From the NCBI RefSeq assembly GCF_000020325.1, contig NC_010730.1, forward strand, positions 62,001 through 126,000: 64,000 nt of DNA, read 5' to 3'. The DNA comes from Sulfurihydrogenibium sp. YO3AOP1. GTDB lineage: Bacteria > Aquificota > Aquificia > Aquificales > Hydrogenothermaceae. The first letter of the stretch is position 1. Every line of letters begins with the position of its first letter. The translations under genes were made by a program, and so were the position numbers. Shown here piece by piece: positions 28,557-44,867 of this stretch. The notes below the pieces were generated by a model that did no database searches, was not told the DNA's origin, and worked only from the letters and a program-made list of their open reading frames with translations.

Positions 28557-28690
28557 AAAAAAAATGTTTGAATAATCTAAGATCTAATCGAGAATATTTT
28601 AAACAGTTAAATCTTTACTCAGATCAACCCTTTTAAATTAGATATATAAAATTTAGAGGAAAGAGATTAGTAAAAACAGTAATAAGTTAA

Positions 28691-29042
28691 GTGGAGGCGG
28701 GGGGAATCGAACCCCCGTCCGGCAAAGGCCAAGCCCAAAGGGCTTCTACATGCTTAGCCTGTGATTAAGGTTTCGCCCTAAGCTCCTCCACAGGCAGAGG
28801 AGCTTAAAGCTATCCCCGTTAGGTTTCGAGCCTTCCCTCAGGGGAGGTTGGAAAGGCCCTATCCCGTATGTCTTACGCCCTATCCCAGCCTACGGGCAAG
28901 CCAGGTAGGACGTCGCTGCGTTAATTAAGCAGCGAGAGCGATTTCGCGTTCGGGAATTGTTTTGTTTTGGTTTTTTACGTAGTGACCTTCTACGGCATGC
29001 TTCCCTTTGCTCGCCGCTTGCCGTCGAACCCGTATCGCCCCC
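28691..29042 (-). ncRNA. ssrA: Transfer-messenger RNA (tmRNA)
   Basis: The minus strand starts GGGGGCGATACGGGTTCGACGG and ends GGGGGTTCGATTCCCCCCGC plus CTCCAC, the tRNA-like ends of one-piece tmRNA with a 7-bp acceptor stem and a T-arm. The internal frame ends IPEREIALAA then TAA, close to the Aquifex tag ending ELALAA. GC-rich pseudoknot stems follow. The start of the tag is not certain: the open frame extends back to VKNQNKT. CCA is not encoded. The local G+C is far above the surrounding DNA, as expected for a thermophile RNA. Confidence 0.96.
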
Positions 29043-37342: not shown

Positions 37343-38639
37343 GAGACTTGTCAATAATTTTGTGTCTGGATTGAAAACTTTTTATTAAACAATTGTAAAA
37401 TTTCATAAGAGACTCCTTTAAAAGCAGGTATAGGCTTTTTCCATTTTCCATTCTTTAAATTGTCTCTTTGTATAAGCAGATTTATCTCAAGAATGTCCAC
37501 AGATTGAAAATATCCACCTAAATTTATTCTTACCTTTTCTATCATGCTATTAACACTTTCAACTGGATTTGTTGTGTATATGTGCTTTCTTAGATTTTCT
37601 GGATATTTTAAAAAACATAAGTATCTCTCTTTGTTAGATTGAATATGTTTTATAAAGCTTGGATATTTAGACTTAAATCTACCGCATAAATCATCTAATT
37701 TTTCTAATCCATCTTCATAATCTAAGCTGTTTTCTTTTATGTTTTTCAGTTCTTTGTTAAATACTTGTGAATCTTCTTTATCCATCTGATTTCTAACGTT
37801 TCTTTGTAAATGGACTAAACATAGCTGATGGTCTGTATAAGGAAATAGTGTTTCTATGGCTTTTGTTATCCCAGGAAAATCATCACTTACTATAAGCATT
37901 ACCCTTTTTAGTCCTCTATCTATTAAATCATTGAATACTTTTATCCAGTCTGCTTTGTTTTCACTACTGAAAAATGTGTAAAATCCAAATATATCTTTAT
38001 TTCCTTGTAAATCTATTCCAAGAACTACATAGACAGAAGCCTTTCTGATTTTGTTTTTCTCTTTTATATCACAGTGATATGCGTCTATATACAGTACAAA
38101 TGCATCCGATGGAAGCTCTCTTGTTTTAAAATCATTAAGTCTTTCTATAAGCTGTTTTTTGATTGCATCCATATGTTGTTTTGAGTAGTTTAAGCCCAAG
38201 CTTTTTAATGTAGAATCTATCTTGCTTTCTGAGTATCCATTGGATACCAAACTCATAAGAAGGTCTATATAATCTTCATTAACTCTTTTATAAGGGTCAG
38301 GTAATATTTGTGGTCTAAATTTACCCTTTCTATCTCTTGGGACATTTATGTTAAGCTTGAAAGAACCAGTATTTAGGCTTCTTTCATAATATCCGTTTGC
38401 TTTGTTGTCTTCATCATTTTCAAGGAAGAAATTTCTTTCCTGATTCATAATCAGTTCCACAACAGATTCTAAAAGCTTTCTTATACCTATCTTTTCTTCT
38501 TGAGTTGTTATACCGTTTGGGAAAAGTTCTTTTACTAATTCTTCGGTAGATCTGTCTAATATTTTTTCAAAGTATTCTTTCTTATCCATTACTACTCCTC
38601 CTTATAATTTTATTTAGACACAACATTATTTTAACTCCC
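37343..38639 (-). mobile_element. IS256-family insertion sequence, copy B (1,297 bp)
   Basis: Same ends and length as the element at 10190-11486. The flanking octamers differ (TTTTAGAC left, AAAAGATA right), so no target duplication remains. With the 817-bp gap in the surrounding IS110, this suggests recombination between IS256 copies or an IS256-adjacent deletion after insertion. Confidence 0.9.
37351..38589 (-). CDS. IS256-family transposase, copy B
   Basis: 412 aa, full length and intact, with the same D169/D236-237/E344 candidates as copy A. It differs from copy A at four residues (K90, D109, A142, Q146 here). The CTCCTCC ribosome-site region upstream is unchanged. The presence of two near-identical intact copies indicates recent transposition. 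Confidence 0.95.
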   Translation of the reverse strand: MDKKEYFEKILDRSTEELVKELFPNGITTQEEKIGIRKLLESVVELIMNQERNFFLENDEDNKANGYYERSLNTGSFKLNINVPRDRKGKFRPQILPDPYKRVNEDYIDLLMSLVSNGYSESKIDSTLKSLGLNYSKQHMDAIKKQLIERLNDFKTRELPSDAFVLYIDAYHCDIKEKNKIRKASVYVVLGIDLQGNKDIFGFYTFFSSENKADWIKVFNDLIDRGLKRVMLIVSDDFPGITKAIETLFPYTDHQLCLVHLQRNVRNQMDKEDSQVFNKELKNIKENSLDYEDGLEKLDDLCGRFKSKYPSFIKHIQSNKERYLCFLKYPENLRKHIYTTNPVESVNSMIEKVRINLGGYFQSVDILEINLLIQRDNLKNGKWKKPIPAFKGVSYEILQLFNKKFSIQTQNY

Positions 38640-39854: not shown

Positions 39855-41753
39855 TTATGCTGGCGCTGGAAGTTCTGCAGGTGGAGTTTCCGAACTTGAA
39901 GAATCTGTTATTGTAACTACGCTTTCAAACTTTCTGCATCTATTTAATACTGGAACACCGTACTCTTTTAAAATCGCAAACATTTCTTCACAAGTTATCG
40001 TTTCCTTATCAAGTAAAAGCTGAACCACCGCCACAACGGCATCCTTATAGCTTTCTATTATGTTTTTAGCTTTTTGATAAGATTCTCTTAATATTTTGTT
40101 TACCTCTTCATCTATTTTTCTTGCAGTTTCTTCACTAATTTCCGGTCCTTGGTTTCCAAAGAAAAATCCACCACTTCTGTTTGTAGAAACGTGTATTGGT
40201 CCTATTTCATCACTCATTCCCCAAGCTGCAACAATCCTATAAGCCAATTCTGTTGCTCTCATTAGGTCATTTTCAGCACCTGTTGTAATTCCATCTTTTC
40301 CATAAAATACCTCTTCTGCTGCTCTTCCTCCAAAAAGCTGTAAGATTCTTGCCATCAGATCTTTTTTAGAGTAGAGATGCTTGTCTTCTTCCGGAAGATT
40401 GACAGTTACACCGAGAGCAGCACCTCTTGGAATTATAGAAACTTTATGCAATGGGTCAGCTTCCTCCAACATTACTCCAACTACTGCATGACCAACTTCA
40501 TGGTATGCTATTTTTTCTTTTTCTTTTTCTGTTATTGCCATTCCCTTTCTTTCTAATCCCATCATAATTCTATCTAATGCATCTTCTAATTCCTGCATGC
40601 CCACTTTTTCTTTATTTCTTCTTGCTGCAAGAAGTGCTGCTTCATTTATAAGGTTTGCAAGGTCTGCACCCGAAAATCCGGGTGTTCCTTTTGCTATTGT
40701 CATTAAATCCACATCTTCGTCAAGTGGTATGTTCTTTTTATTTACGTGAACTTTTAGTATCTCATATCTTCCTTTTACGTCCGGCTTTGGAACAGAAATC
40801 TGTCTGTCAAATCTTCCTGGTCTAAGTAATGCTGGGTCAAGAATATCTGGTCTGTTTGTCGCCGCAATTACTATTATTCCTTCATTTGTATCAAATCCAT
40901 CTAATTCAACAAGTAACTGGTTTAATGTTTGCTCTCTTTCATCATGACCACCACCAAAACCGACACCTGATCTTGCTCTACCTACTGCATCGATCTCATC
41001 TATAAATATTAAACATGGAGCATGTTTTTTTGCAGTTTCAAATAAATCTCTAACTCTTGCAGCACCAACACCAACAAACATCTCAACAAAATCTGACCCT
41101 GATATAGAAATGAAAGGAACGTTAGCTTCCCCGGCTATAGCTTTAGCCAATAATGTTTTACCAACGCCTGGGTCTCCATAGAGTAATATTCCTTTTGGTG
41201 CTCTACCACCAAGTTTTTGATATCTTGATGGGTCTTTAAGATATTCTATTAACTCTTTTACTTCCTCTTTTACTTCATCCATTCCAGCAACATCATCTAG
41301 TTTTACATTAGGCTTTTCTTCTAAATATAGCTTTCCTTTACTTTTTGCAAATGAAAATGCCCTATTTGGACCACCAGACATCTGTCTCATCATAAAAATC
41401 CAAAGACCAATAAAAAGCAGTATTGGCAACCAAGAAACTAATAAAGTTAAAAACCAATTGCTGCTTTCACTTGGTAATACTTTTATCTGCACACCATTTT
41501 CAGATAAAATATCATAAAGTCTTGAATAGCCGGATGGAACTATAGTTTCAACCTTTTTCCCATCTTCTGTAACAGCTATAAGCTCTTCTCCTCTTATTGT
41601 GGCTTCTTTAATATTTTTCTCATTTACCATATTGATGAATTCAGTAAAAGGAACCTTGTTATCAACAAGCTGTTTTGAACCAAACATATTGAAAGCCAAA
41701 ATCATCATAGCACCGATTAAAAACCATATCAATAAACTTCTTGTTAGTTGCAA
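39855..41753 (-). CDS. ftsH: ATP-dependent zinc metalloprotease FtsH
   Basis: 632 aa membrane AAA+ protease. Two TM helices (about 5-25 and 105-125), Walker A GDPGVGKT, Walker [33 protein letters not shown], and zinc site HEVGH. The only in-frame start after a stop is TTG at 41753. A TnpB-like element lies immediately upstream. Restoring the pre-insertion sequence places AAGGAGG 10 nt before this same TTG. Today only AGG sits in that position, so translation may be reduced. Confidence 0.95.
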
Positions 41754-41774
41754 CTTTGTACCTGGTCAACCAAA

Positions 41775-43412
41775 CTATGCAAATCTTGCACAGCTTGGGT
41801 TGGGGTATTTGTATTCCGCCTTTTCAGACACTTCCGTCCCCAACAGGCGGTATTTTGGAAGTGTCATAGTCCCTGTCCCAAGTACAGGAGCTAACCTATT
41901 AGCCACTACTGTCCAATCCTTTGAAACGATTACACGCTTCAAAGGAGAAAAATCTCTGTAAGACTTTTCAAGACAGCAGAAGGCTAAGGCTATGGAGAGA
42001 ACTTGCCAGCTTTTATGTCTGCTTGTAGGCAGACCCCTCACCTGTTCCTTCCGTCGGTTGACAGGTTGTCGGGAAGATGACTCACTCTTTCCACTTTCTA
42101 AATATTTCTGCAATGTTTTTAAACTCTTTCTGAGTTTTGCTAATTTACTTTTTAATCCATTTCTCTTATACTCATTCTTCTCTTCTTTTAGATCTTCTTT
42201 TAGTCTTTTAATATCGTCTTCAATTTTTGCTATAGTGTATGATAGAAAGTCAGCATCATTTAATAGTTCTTTGTAATTTTTAGGTAATTTCTCTTTATAT
42301 CCTAATCCTCTTCTTGCTATTACATAAGCTCCTGCTATGTCTTTGTCTATGTTGTATTGTGGTGCATATTTTAGCTTTCCAATTACTGATGTATATGCAG
42401 GATTAACTTTTCTTATTTCTATCCCGTTTCTCTTTGCCAGTATTTCTATTTTGTCTAATAATCTTTTATAGCTCCATTTTTGTAGTCTTCCTCTTAATTT
42501 GGCAAATCCGTCCCCTCTTTTGCCTTTTGGTAGTTTCTTTAAGTTTTCAATAGTAATAGCTTTATTCTCTTCCTTTGCTATCTCTATTATCTTATGTGCT
42601 ATTTGCCATTCTAAATACTGTCTTTTTTCTGAGTTTACTTCTAATAATTCGTTTAAACTAATACTTTGATATTTCTCTAAATTTCCATCTTTACTTGCAA
42701 AAGCTAATGCTAAATGAAATGGATATGCGTTTACATCTATGCCTATTATTCCATTATCTCTTTTAATCGTGATAGGTGGTAGTTTTTCATCGATGGATAT
42801 AAAGGCGTATACATTACCGTTTTTTACTTTTAGTCTGACTGGGTATGGAAACCACTCTCCGTATTTATATGCATTTTCAAGCATAAACATAAACTCTATC
42901 CATTTATCTTTTTCTCTTTTAACGTCTCTAACTACTTTTGCGTAAATATATTGCCTATCTCCTGTGTTTATTCTCAAGTATAACTCATTATTAATCCACT
43001 GAAATCTTAAATTCAGATTTCCTTGTTTAGACTTATCTCCTGTTGAGTATAAATTTCCTTGCCTGCTTTCTTTCCATTTTGTTTTTAATTCCTTTCTTCT
43101 TTTTCCTGTTAAATGGTTTTTCTTTAGTTGTTCAAATGATTTCCTTGAACCAAATATAAGCTTTTTTGGATTTTGTTCTCTTTCTTTGCATGACGTAATT
43201 ATTGACTGTGCTAAAAATATAGCATCATCTGAGTATCTTGTGTTTATGTTAAATAGTCTTGATAATTGCTTTTTTAAATCTTTTCTTTTTTCGCCTTCTA
43301 ATAATCTTTGGTATGCATATCTCATGGCAGATGAAAATCTACACATTAAATCTAATACAATCTCTTTATCTTGCATATTTTGGAATTCAAGTAAGCATTG
43401 CAGAGTTATCAT
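41775..43412 (-). CDS. TnpB-like RuvC-domain protein (IS605 OrfB family) lacking the zinc ribbon
   Basis: 545 aa. RuvC residues are likely D226 (GIIGIDVNAYP), E289 (AITIENLKKL) and D358 (YNIDKDIAGAYVIARRGLG). TnpB proteins usually have two CxxC pairs between the second and third residues; here there is no Cys at all in 290-358. A charged coiled coil (about 395-450) and a 90-residue tail encoded by GC-richer DNA follow. That tail overlaps a predicted RNA pseudoknot. Known TnpBs are RNA-guided nucleases; activity here is uncertain. Confidence 0.82.
   Translation of the reverse strand: MITLQCLLEFQNMQDKEIVLDLMCRFSSAMRYAYQRLLEGEKRKDLKKQLSRLFNINTRYSDDAIFLAQSIITSCKEREQNPKKLIFGSRKSFEQLKKNHLTGKRRKELKTKWKESRQGNLYSTGDKSKQGNLNLRFQWINNELYLRINTGDRQYIYAKVVRDVKREKDKWIEFMFMLENAYKYGEWFPYPVRLKVKNGNVYAFISIDEKLPPITIKRDNGIIGIDVNAYPFHLALAFASKDGNLEKYQSISLNELLEVNSEKRQYLEWQIAHKIIEIAKEENKAITIENLKKLPKGKRGDGFAKLRGRLQKWSYKRLLDKIEILAKRNGIEIRKVNPAYTSVIGKLKYAPQYNIDKDIAGAYVIARRGLGYKEKLPKNYKELLNDADFLSYTIAKIEDDIKRLKEDLKEEKNEYKRNGLKSKLAKLRKSLKTLQKYLESGKSESSSRQPVNRRKEQVRGLPTSRHKSWQVLSIALAFCCLEKSYRDFSPLKRVIVSKDWTVVANRLAPVLGTGTMTLPKYRLLGTEVSEKAEYKYPNPSCARFA
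41816..41888 (-). ncRNA. Possible omega-RNA-like pseudoknot at the 3' end of the tnpB-like gene
   Basis: On the minus strand GACACTTCC (41865-41857) pairs with GGAAGTGTC (41835-41827). CCGCC (41850-41846), inside that loop, pairs with GGCGG (41820-41816) beyond it, an H-type pseudoknot with 9- and 5-bp perfect stems. A hairpin CCTGT/ACAGG (41888-41872) lies just 5' of it. Right-end guide RNAs of TnpB elements are transcribed from this place and contain a pseudoknot. The pairing is seen; the RNA is inferred. Confidence 0.45.
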
Positions 43413-43493
43413 TTCTCAATCTCTCTCTTTTTTATTATTTACAACTTACACTTTTTGTTTTTGTATTTTTGTTATACATCTTTTTATACTTTT

Positions 43494-44867
43494 TTACAGA
43501 AAATAGCAATTGTTGTGAACCTCCTTATATCTAAAACAAATAACTTTCGTTGAATTTTCTGAAACTGGATAATATCCAGACCTTTTGTATCCAATTATCC
43601 ATAGTATTTTATTATTATACACCAAAAGGGGTATGCTATCTCTCACATATTTTGGAATTTTTAAATCAATAAAAACATCTTTTATTTTTTTTTCCGTCTT
43701 TCTATTAAAAGGTAAAAATCTATCTCCTTCTTTTCTTGTTCTAATTTCCAAAATACTATCCTCTGGCAAATCAAAACATTCTGTATTATTATCTTTTTTA
43801 AAGTCTTTAGCGTCGATTACATAGCTTTCTAATTCCATACAAAACTCTTTTAAGAAAATTTTCTGACCAACTTTTAATTTATATTCTATTTGTAAATTTT
43901 CCATATTTTCAGATGTTGAAATTTCAAGTTTATCGTATGTTTTTACAACTTTAATATCTCTTGAAATTTTTATCTCTTTTTGTCCTTGTTTATCTAAAAT
44001 TTCCATTAGGTTTAAAATTTGCTTGTAAGATGGGTAAGTATCAGTGTTTTCATATATCCATTTAATTAAAAGTCTATATTTCAAAGCGTTTGGAAGCTTA
44101 TTAATAAAAGATAAGTCTAATAAATTTTTATTATCAAGTTGGGAATAATATTCCTCCGTTAACTTGTCTAAATAGAATTCATCAAAATATGATAATTGAG
44201 ATAAATTTAACATTGAATTTTCTAAATCTGGATTGATTTTTTTCAAAATTGGTATAACATCTAAACGAACTTGATTTCTTAAATACTTCCTTGAAAAGTT
44301 TGACTGGTCTATTAAATATTCCAATCCGTTTTTTTGGCAATATTCTTCAATCTCTTCTTTTGTGATTAGATATAATGGTCTTATTATATTGTTTTCTTTT
44401 GGACGAAAACCCTTTAGTCCTCGTTTATTTCCTTGGATGAACCAAAGAACTATAGACTCTGTTAAATCTGAAAGATGATGTCCTGTTGCTATTTTATTTA
44501 GATTTTCTTTTTGAAGAATTTCATTGAAAAATTTATATCTCTCTAACCTTCCTGCTTCTTCTACAGAAATTTTTTGCTCTCTAGCAACCTTTTTAACATC
44601 GGCTTTCTTAACATGAATTTTTAAACCAAGGCTACTGGCAAACTTTTCGCAAAATTCTTGGTCTTGGTCTGACTCTTTTCTTAGAGTATGATTTAGATGT
44701 GCAAGCTGAATTTTTGCTATATTCAAAGTTTTTTGGAATTTTAGCAGTAGATTGGTCAAAACTAATGAATCAGGACCACCTGAGAATGCTATAAGAATTT
44801 TATCTTGGTTTTCAATAAGATTAAATTTTCTAACAGCTTTTAGAAATTTGCTTTCAAGCATAGTCAT
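43494..44867 (-). CDS. tilS: tRNA(Ile)-lysidine synthase
   Basis: 457 aa. Converts C34 of tRNA-Ile(CAU) to lysidine. PP-loop SGGPDS (about 30-35), HLNHTLRKES, and ATGHHLSDLTES are the N-type ATPase core; TilS middle and C-terminal domains follow. The current C-terminus (NNCYFL) is created by the neighbouring element; without it the gene would end NNCN. Start is ATG 44867 or ATG 44861, only 2-8 bp after the tRNA 3' end, so tRNA processing releases a nearly leaderless mRNA. Confidence 0.92.
   Translation of the reverse strand: MTMLESKFLKAVRKFNLIENQDKILIAFSGGPDSLVLTNLLLKFQKTLNIAKIQLAHLNHTLRKESDQDQEFCEKFASSLGLKIHVKKADVKKVAREQKISVEEAGRLERYKFFNEILQKENLNKIATGHHLSDLTESIVLWFIQGNKRGLKGFRPKENNIIRPLYLITKEEIEEYCQKNGLEYLIDQSNFSRKYLRNQVRLDVIPILKKINPDLENSMLNLSQLSYFDEFYLDKLTEEYYSQLDNKNLLDLSFINKLPNALKYRLLIKWIYENTDTYPSYKQILNLMEILDKQGQKEIKISRDIKVVKTYDKLEISTSENMENLQIEYKLKVGQKIFLKEFCMELESYVIDAKDFKKDNNTECFDLPEDSILEIRTRKEGDRFLPFNRKTEKKIKDVFIDLKIPKYVRDSIPLLVYNNKILWIIGYKRSGYYPVSENSTKVICFRYKEVHNNCYFL

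Follow-up and report, generated by a model that had tools for sequence, protein, structure and literature searches.

In the stretch of Sulfurihydrogenibium sp. YO3AOP1 DNA analyzed here (64,000 nucleotides of contig NC_010730.1, positions 62,001 to 126,000; hereafter, the window), the genes tilS and ftsH are separated by a transposon-derived element. It carries a gene for a TnpB-like protein and, overlapping the 3' end of that gene on the same strand, a pseudoknotted RNA in the place where the guide RNA of TnpB elements, called omegaRNA or right-end element RNA (reRNA), would be expected. The features of the locus are listed in Table 1.

Table 1. Features of the element between tilS and ftsH, in window positions.
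Feature	Positions	Strand	Basis or remark
TnpB element body, IS607-type, tnpA-less	41763..43519	-	left end at 43519, right end ending in GG at 41762-41761; four-copy alignment and empty site
AAGGAGG, original ftsH Shine-Dalgarno sequence inside the 3' end of tilS; left flank of the element, presumed transposon-adjacent motif (TAM)	43520..43526	-	sequence
Left-end sequence now giving tilS its last codons and stop	43494..43519	-	stop of the tilS open reading frame (ORF) falls within the element, at 43494
Right-end GG (IS607-type core), also replacement Shine-Dalgarno ACCAGG	41761..41762	-	copy alignment, empty site
TnpB-like ORF, 545 aa	41775..43412	-	TIGR01765 and TIGR01766 above cut-off; RNA overlap and predicted disorder in the last ~40 residues
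Structured RNA, presumed omegaRNA/reRNA scaffold, as modelled	41761..41912	-	covariance model R1
Hairpin H1	41872..41888	-	CCTGT (41888-41884) with ACAGG (41876-41872); 99.2% paired
Stem A, 9 bp	41827..41865	-	GACACTTCC (41865-41857) perfectly complementary to GGAAGTGTC (41835-41827); compensatory changes in 9/9 pairs
Pseudoknot PK1, 5 bp	41816..41850	-	CCGCC (41850-41846) with GGCGG (41820-41816); 100% paired, 2 compensatory cells
Pseudoknot PK2, 7 bp	41799..41844	-	GTTGGGG (41844-41838) with CCCCAAC (41805-41799); 6/7 pairs compensatory
Terminal hairpin H2	41770..41798	-	41786-41798 with 41770-41782; six outer modelled pairs 98.8% paired, two inner 62.1%
Presumed guide TACAAAGTTGCAACTAACAA: spacer between Shine-Dalgarno sequence and start, TTG start (41753-41751), first ftsH codons	41741..41760	-	position past the right end; function inferred

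An IS607-derived element between tilS and ftsH

Four full copies of the element are present in the genome, which is a single contig of 1,838,442 bp, the other three encoding proteins 85-88% identical to that of the window. Alignment of the four copies revealed a common left end (…AACAGTTGCTATTTTCTGTAAAAAAGTG) and a common right end (…TTTGGTTGACCAGG), past which the copies diverge. In a related genome (G005, locus L161; G and L numbers denote genomes and loci throughout), the tilS-ftsH junction is an empty site, …TAAGGAGG TACAAAG TTG…, in which the tilS frame runs on into the ftsH start and which exactly matches the two flanks of the window copy when these are joined. The two junctions read AAGGAGG / element ...ACCAGG / TACAAAG, with GG at both and no target duplication, and the empty site holds a single GG. 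GG at both junctions is the behaviour of IS607 elements (PMC10711439; this and the other papers given by PMC number are cited for the accessible part of their text). AAGGAGG also precedes the ftsH start in 6/6 other genomes of the genus, and the element sits between this Shine-Dalgarno sequence and the ftsH start codon. The other three copies occupy the same position before genes which, going by their translations, we take to be hslU, lexA and trpS.

The window copy does not encode the serine recombinase TnpA that characterizes IS607 elements, since the ~107 bp between its left end and tnpB leave no room for the gene. A tblastn search over 159 loci located an IS607 serine-recombinase tnpA directly upstream of related tnpB genes at 14 distinct places. 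The Y1 transposase, which stands beside tnpB in IS200/IS605 elements, occurs once in the genome, at L037, and apart from this locus of its own no Y1 relative was found in any of the 159 loci, nor beside any of the related TnpBs. The full IS607 element of the genome (L059) has ends different from those of the window element. The element is IS607-derived and lacks tnpA.

In the TnpB-like protein the RuvC D-E-D triad (D226, E289 and D358) is invariant in 29 sequences, so the loss of catalytic residues that marks the TnpB-like regulators TldR is not observed. The fold of the predicted model matches Cas12f1 (9i8y; Z 15.7, root-mean-square deviation 4.2, 311 aligned) and the TnpB of ISDra2 (8exa; Z 13.2, deviation 4.5, 281 aligned). 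Residues 507-545 have a pLDDT (predicted local distance difference test) below 50, and tblastn matches of several relatives pass through stop codons, mostly in the tail (L103, L108, L113, L116, L117, L118, L120, L151 and L152), which together show that the tail is conserved as RNA and not as protein.

The RNA at the right end and its presumed guide

Read from its 5' end, the RNA consists of hairpin H1, stem A with the 5' strands of PK1 and PK2 in its loop, the 3' strands of both, hairpin H2 and ACCAGG, with which it ends at the right end of the element. Model R1 gave 59 matches in 99 sources, yielding an alignment of 56 distinct rows in which 34 pairs were counted. Because the gaps of a plain MAFFT alignment disrupted the register of stem A, helices were counted on the model-based alignment; H1, stem A and H2 are built into that model, which may make them look better than they are, and PK1 and PK2 were left out of it. 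Standard pairs occupied 94.7% of the cells, compared to 76.9% with partners shuffled and 34-57% when the columns were slid by 1-3 positions, and both-side changes amounted to 323 where shuffling predicts 90. PK1 is paired in 51/51 sequences having letters there. Cells with G.U (71) far exceed those with A.C (9), which supports an RNA of the minus strand. The nested minimum free energy of 41761-41912(-) was modest as a signal (z = -2.37, with 4/200 shuffles as good and the pseudoknot not in that fold), and the structure is accepted as real because of the covariation. The stems are real and covary strongly across the 56 distinct relatives. Five copies (L049, L053, L054, L056 and L057) have a common deletion that drops H1 and keeps the pseudoknot core.

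A first-pass annotation, made from the letters of the window, had drawn the 9-bp stem, a 5-bp GC stem interlocked with it as an H-type pseudoknot and the adjoining CCTGT/ACAGG hairpin, had suggested an omegaRNA/reRNA at the 3' overlap of tnpB and had named covariation across related elements as the check. The stems are borne out by the counts above, the covarying RNA lies where an omegaRNA/reRNA would be expected, and the order of the four strands fits the pseudoknot; PK2 and H2 had been missed, and the IS607-like type, the placement behind a Shine-Dalgarno sequence and the solo leader copies described below had not been foreseen. The annotation had further set the guide in the first codons of ftsH, from CAACTAACAAG onwards. 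The ftsH start does lie beyond the right end, but this end is fixed at GG 41762-41761 by the four copies and the empty site, so the guide would begin near 41760 (TACAAAGTTG...), ~9 nt before the place assigned to it. The flanking G may be part of the scaffold, which is what has been reported for a different IS607 TnpB (PMC10711439).

On account of its position, structure and family, the minus-strand RNA is probably the guide scaffold of an IS607-type TnpB, with a core that would later have been kept as a 5' leader of host genes. TnpB would bind the RNA and take a guide of ~20 nt from the DNA past the right end. The complex would then target the site in its uninterrupted form, AGGAG(G) followed by a gene start, and would favour keeping or restoring the element there. 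No relevant Rfam match was obtained in the window at gathering score, nor at E up to 10 over 41500-43700, nor in 8 related loci, and the same sequences gave no match to the Rfam covariance model of the RAGATH-18 RNA.

Shine-Dalgarno sites and RNA copies without TnpB

Among Sulfurihydrogenibium-type elements, GGAGG stands directly at the junction in 17/22 left ends, compared to a background of 0.0024 per 10-nt window. Past the right end, the start codon of an ORF of at least 50 aa follows after 3-16 nt in 67/83 distinct right flanks (53 with ATG), a count in which three of the ends, belonging to the solo loci L212, L277 and L290, are mis-assigned; among the 8204 remaining CAGG sites of the same DNA, the background is 13.8% (ATG 4.7%). 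The right end, ACCAGG, carries an AGG of its own, so that an essential gene downstream would keep a ribosome-binding site. At L310 (G103) the sequence past the right end resembles the middle part of mnmE, so insertions are not always at gene starts. The TAMs published for 22 strains with IS607 TnpBs are AGGAG in 18 and GAGGG in 4 (PMC11061315). The main text of that paper mentions neither "ribosome" nor "start codon", and a search of the open-access literature retrieved no paper tying IS607 TAMs to Shine-Dalgarno sites or describing the leader RNA. From the flanks, together with the published TAMs of relatives, we infer that the TnpB nuclease would be aimed at Shine-Dalgarno sites.

The RNA is also found on its own. 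R1 matches occur in 74/101 related genomes, at 1 to 31 per genome; in a cross-count of 61 genomes the RNA was present in 19 of the 33 lacking any found TnpB relative, and G041 has three RNA copies and no TnpB match at all. At L051, L053, L054, L055 and L064 (G002 and G005) the element is short, ~450-500 bp, and has kept its two ends and the RNA but no tnpB. From 29 genomes, picked for having R1 matches, 68 solo copies were gathered, and in 54 of them an ORF starts 1-15 nt past the RNA end. Only one has no ORF start nearby; for the other 13 the script took an alternative start slightly inside, and most have a better-placed start downstream. Four solo copies from Firmicutes or Thermodesulfobacterium genomes (L317, L318, L319 and L326) precede start codons as well. 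In the 45 copies that entered the pairing tests, PK1 and PK2 were 97.6% paired with 41 both-side changes (13.7 expected), and stem A reached at least 6 bp in 43/45, compared to 18.6 with partners dealt anew. Within single-gene sets the latter test separated weakly for htpX and not at all for rpoA (5 rows) or the napA-like gene, these two sets being too small or too alike for it.

Several solo copies recur at the same gene, the names at these loci (rpoA, htpX, napA-like and others) being those that we presume from the translations. A copy between rpsD and rpoA is shared by 10 genomes, namely all 7 of the genus, G012, G019, and G045 of another family; in the comparison, which covered 30 of 45 rpoA loci, 20 lack the RNA, and those of them that were read carry a plain GGAGG there. 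The htpX copy, in 9 genomes, keeps an RNA core of ~0.9 identity next to an upstream flank of 0.3-0.5, has a TTGACA-type promoter sequence just upstream and shows changes on both sides of stem A. A copy before the napA-like gene is found in 8 genomes. The genome of the window has solo copies before rpoA (G000:C1:282150-282278(-), the one common to the whole genus) and before a gene starting MAQRGIREYDGK (1099034-1099173(-)).

The largest set, 31 R1 matches in a 1.5-Mb genome, belongs to G045 (L202-L210 and L277-L296). About nine of its copies are near-identical from stem A to H2 and have unrelated flanks, as if an RNA unit of ~95 bp had spread there recently. From their translations, we take the genes behind the G045 copies to be korB, nuoB, rpsU, hfq, rplY, metE, rpoA, rpsK, ftsH and others.

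Because the RNA is conserved, with compensatory changes, at the same genes, we lean towards the solo copies being functional leaders, that is, towards a transposon guide RNA domesticated as a cis-acting mRNA leader and forming an unrecorded RNA family, in which stem A, PK1 and PK2 may control or support the translation of housekeeping genes. Its bearers would include rpoA, htpX, the napA-like gene, rho, ribosomal protein genes and hfq, in Aquificota, some Firmicutes and Thermodesulfobacteria. On such a course tnpA would have been lost, then tnpB, and the RNA core retained as a 5' leader that acts in cis on some host genes. The existence of intermediates and the span of TnpB-linked copies over several phyla favour a direction from guide RNA to leader, and not the capture of a host leader by transposons.

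Alternative explanations and closest known systems

The solo copies might instead be functionless, decaying relics of past insertions, as their widely varying number per genome would fit. If each solo copy came from an insertion that split a Shine-Dalgarno sequence, a remnant should stand at its left, and GGAGG or AGGAG is near the left of only 15/68 (7.1 expected); a few, such as the rpoA copy of G045, keep it. We nevertheless consider relics unlikely, given the persistence of the RNA at htpX and rpoA across related genomes with compensatory stem changes, and the excess of intact stem A over the redealt pairs, bearing in mind that the rpoA and napA-like sets alone do not separate from shuffles. 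Less probable still is that the RNA serves mainly as a translation leader in cis, carried by the transposon to spare the host after landing behind a Shine-Dalgarno sequence, and is no TnpB guide. Solo copies without TnpB do hold the same position relative to the start codon and keep the knotted core, and as read they mostly lack H1; H1 is, however, kept at 99% in the TnpB-linked copies. Moreover, the 3' end of tnpB at the right end is the place of all known omegaRNAs/reRNAs, the element shows no second candidate for a scaffold, and the production of such RNAs by IS607 elements is established (PMC10711439).

A DNA hairpin used by a Y1 transposase, by the IS200/IS605 mechanism, is the least credible explanation of the structure. 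Ends of IS200/IS605 elements typically carry subterminal hairpins, but the GG junctions, the serine-recombinase tnpA adjoining tnpB in relatives and the isolation of the single Y1 at its own locus all speak against it, as do the G.U excess over A.C and the solo copies without transposon ends.

Several observations weigh against the interpretation of the RNA as a TnpB guide scaffold aimed at gene starts and later reused. A start codon is not nearby in 16/83 right flanks, with three of the 83 ends mis-assigned, GGAGG is missing at 5/22 left ends, and most solo copies have no Shine-Dalgarno remnant. Rfam contains no known omegaRNA family that the RNA matches. The window element has no tnpA, and the one full-length IS607 tnpA that was detected in the genome adjoins a different TnpB. 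In the alignment, the zinc ribbon between RuvC-II and RuvC-III is absent from the protein, the segment having no cysteines; the PF07282 match is below cut-off and covers only positions 1-29 of 60, and the guided_TnpB profile scores 40.5 bits where the cut-off is 100. Finally, R1 found no match in the three genomes searched of Thermus-group TnpB relatives, nor in many members of the Thermocrinis group (~45% identical), so the RNA is not used by every relative. The Thermus-group TnpBs (L127, L130, L131 and L136), about 40% identical and most with an IS607 tnpA, may use another scaffold.

A nuclease with the ribosome-binding site as its target motif would naturally aim at gene starts, which would give the published AGGAG TAM a biological sense. 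If the solo copies are leaders, they would clearly exemplify the conversion of a TnpB guide RNA into a cis-regulatory mRNA element, and two fields would thereby be connected; should the reuse be only a relic, Shine-Dalgarno targeting and the new RNA scaffold would still stand. Elsewhere in the window, a second, unrelated transposase-like ORF of 412 aa, presumably of the mutator/IS256 kind, lies close to the element (37351-38589), and a tmRNA gene (Rfam RF00023) is found at 28689-29042.

Among known systems, the TnpB of ISFba1 with its RAGATH-18-derived reRNA (PMC11061315) shares with the window element the IS607 type, the RuvC triad, a guide past the right end, a TAM (5'-AGGAG) equal to the left flank here and an RNA with two pseudoknots. 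That protein has about 390 aa and its reRNA is described as independent of the coding sequence, whereas here the protein has 545 aa and the RNA overlaps the ORF; unlike the ISFba1 system, the window protein has no zinc ribbon and its RNA no Rfam family. The IS607 TnpB of ISXfa1 (PMC10711439) has in common with it the GG crossover, an ~150-nt reRNA past the right end and a flanking nucleotide in the scaffold; its TAM, GGG, is different, and the accessible text describes no link to gene starts. ISDra2 TnpB and Cas12f share the fold and the RuvC residues with the window protein, which differs from them by the missing zinc ribbon, its RNA and the IS607-type ends. TldR proteins, nuclease-dead TnpB-like regulators (PMC13418256), are likewise TnpB relatives, with an RNA that acts on host genes, as the leader RNA here may; in contrast, the window protein has kept its catalytic residues, and the solo leaders, for which no protein partner was identified, stand in cis to their genes.
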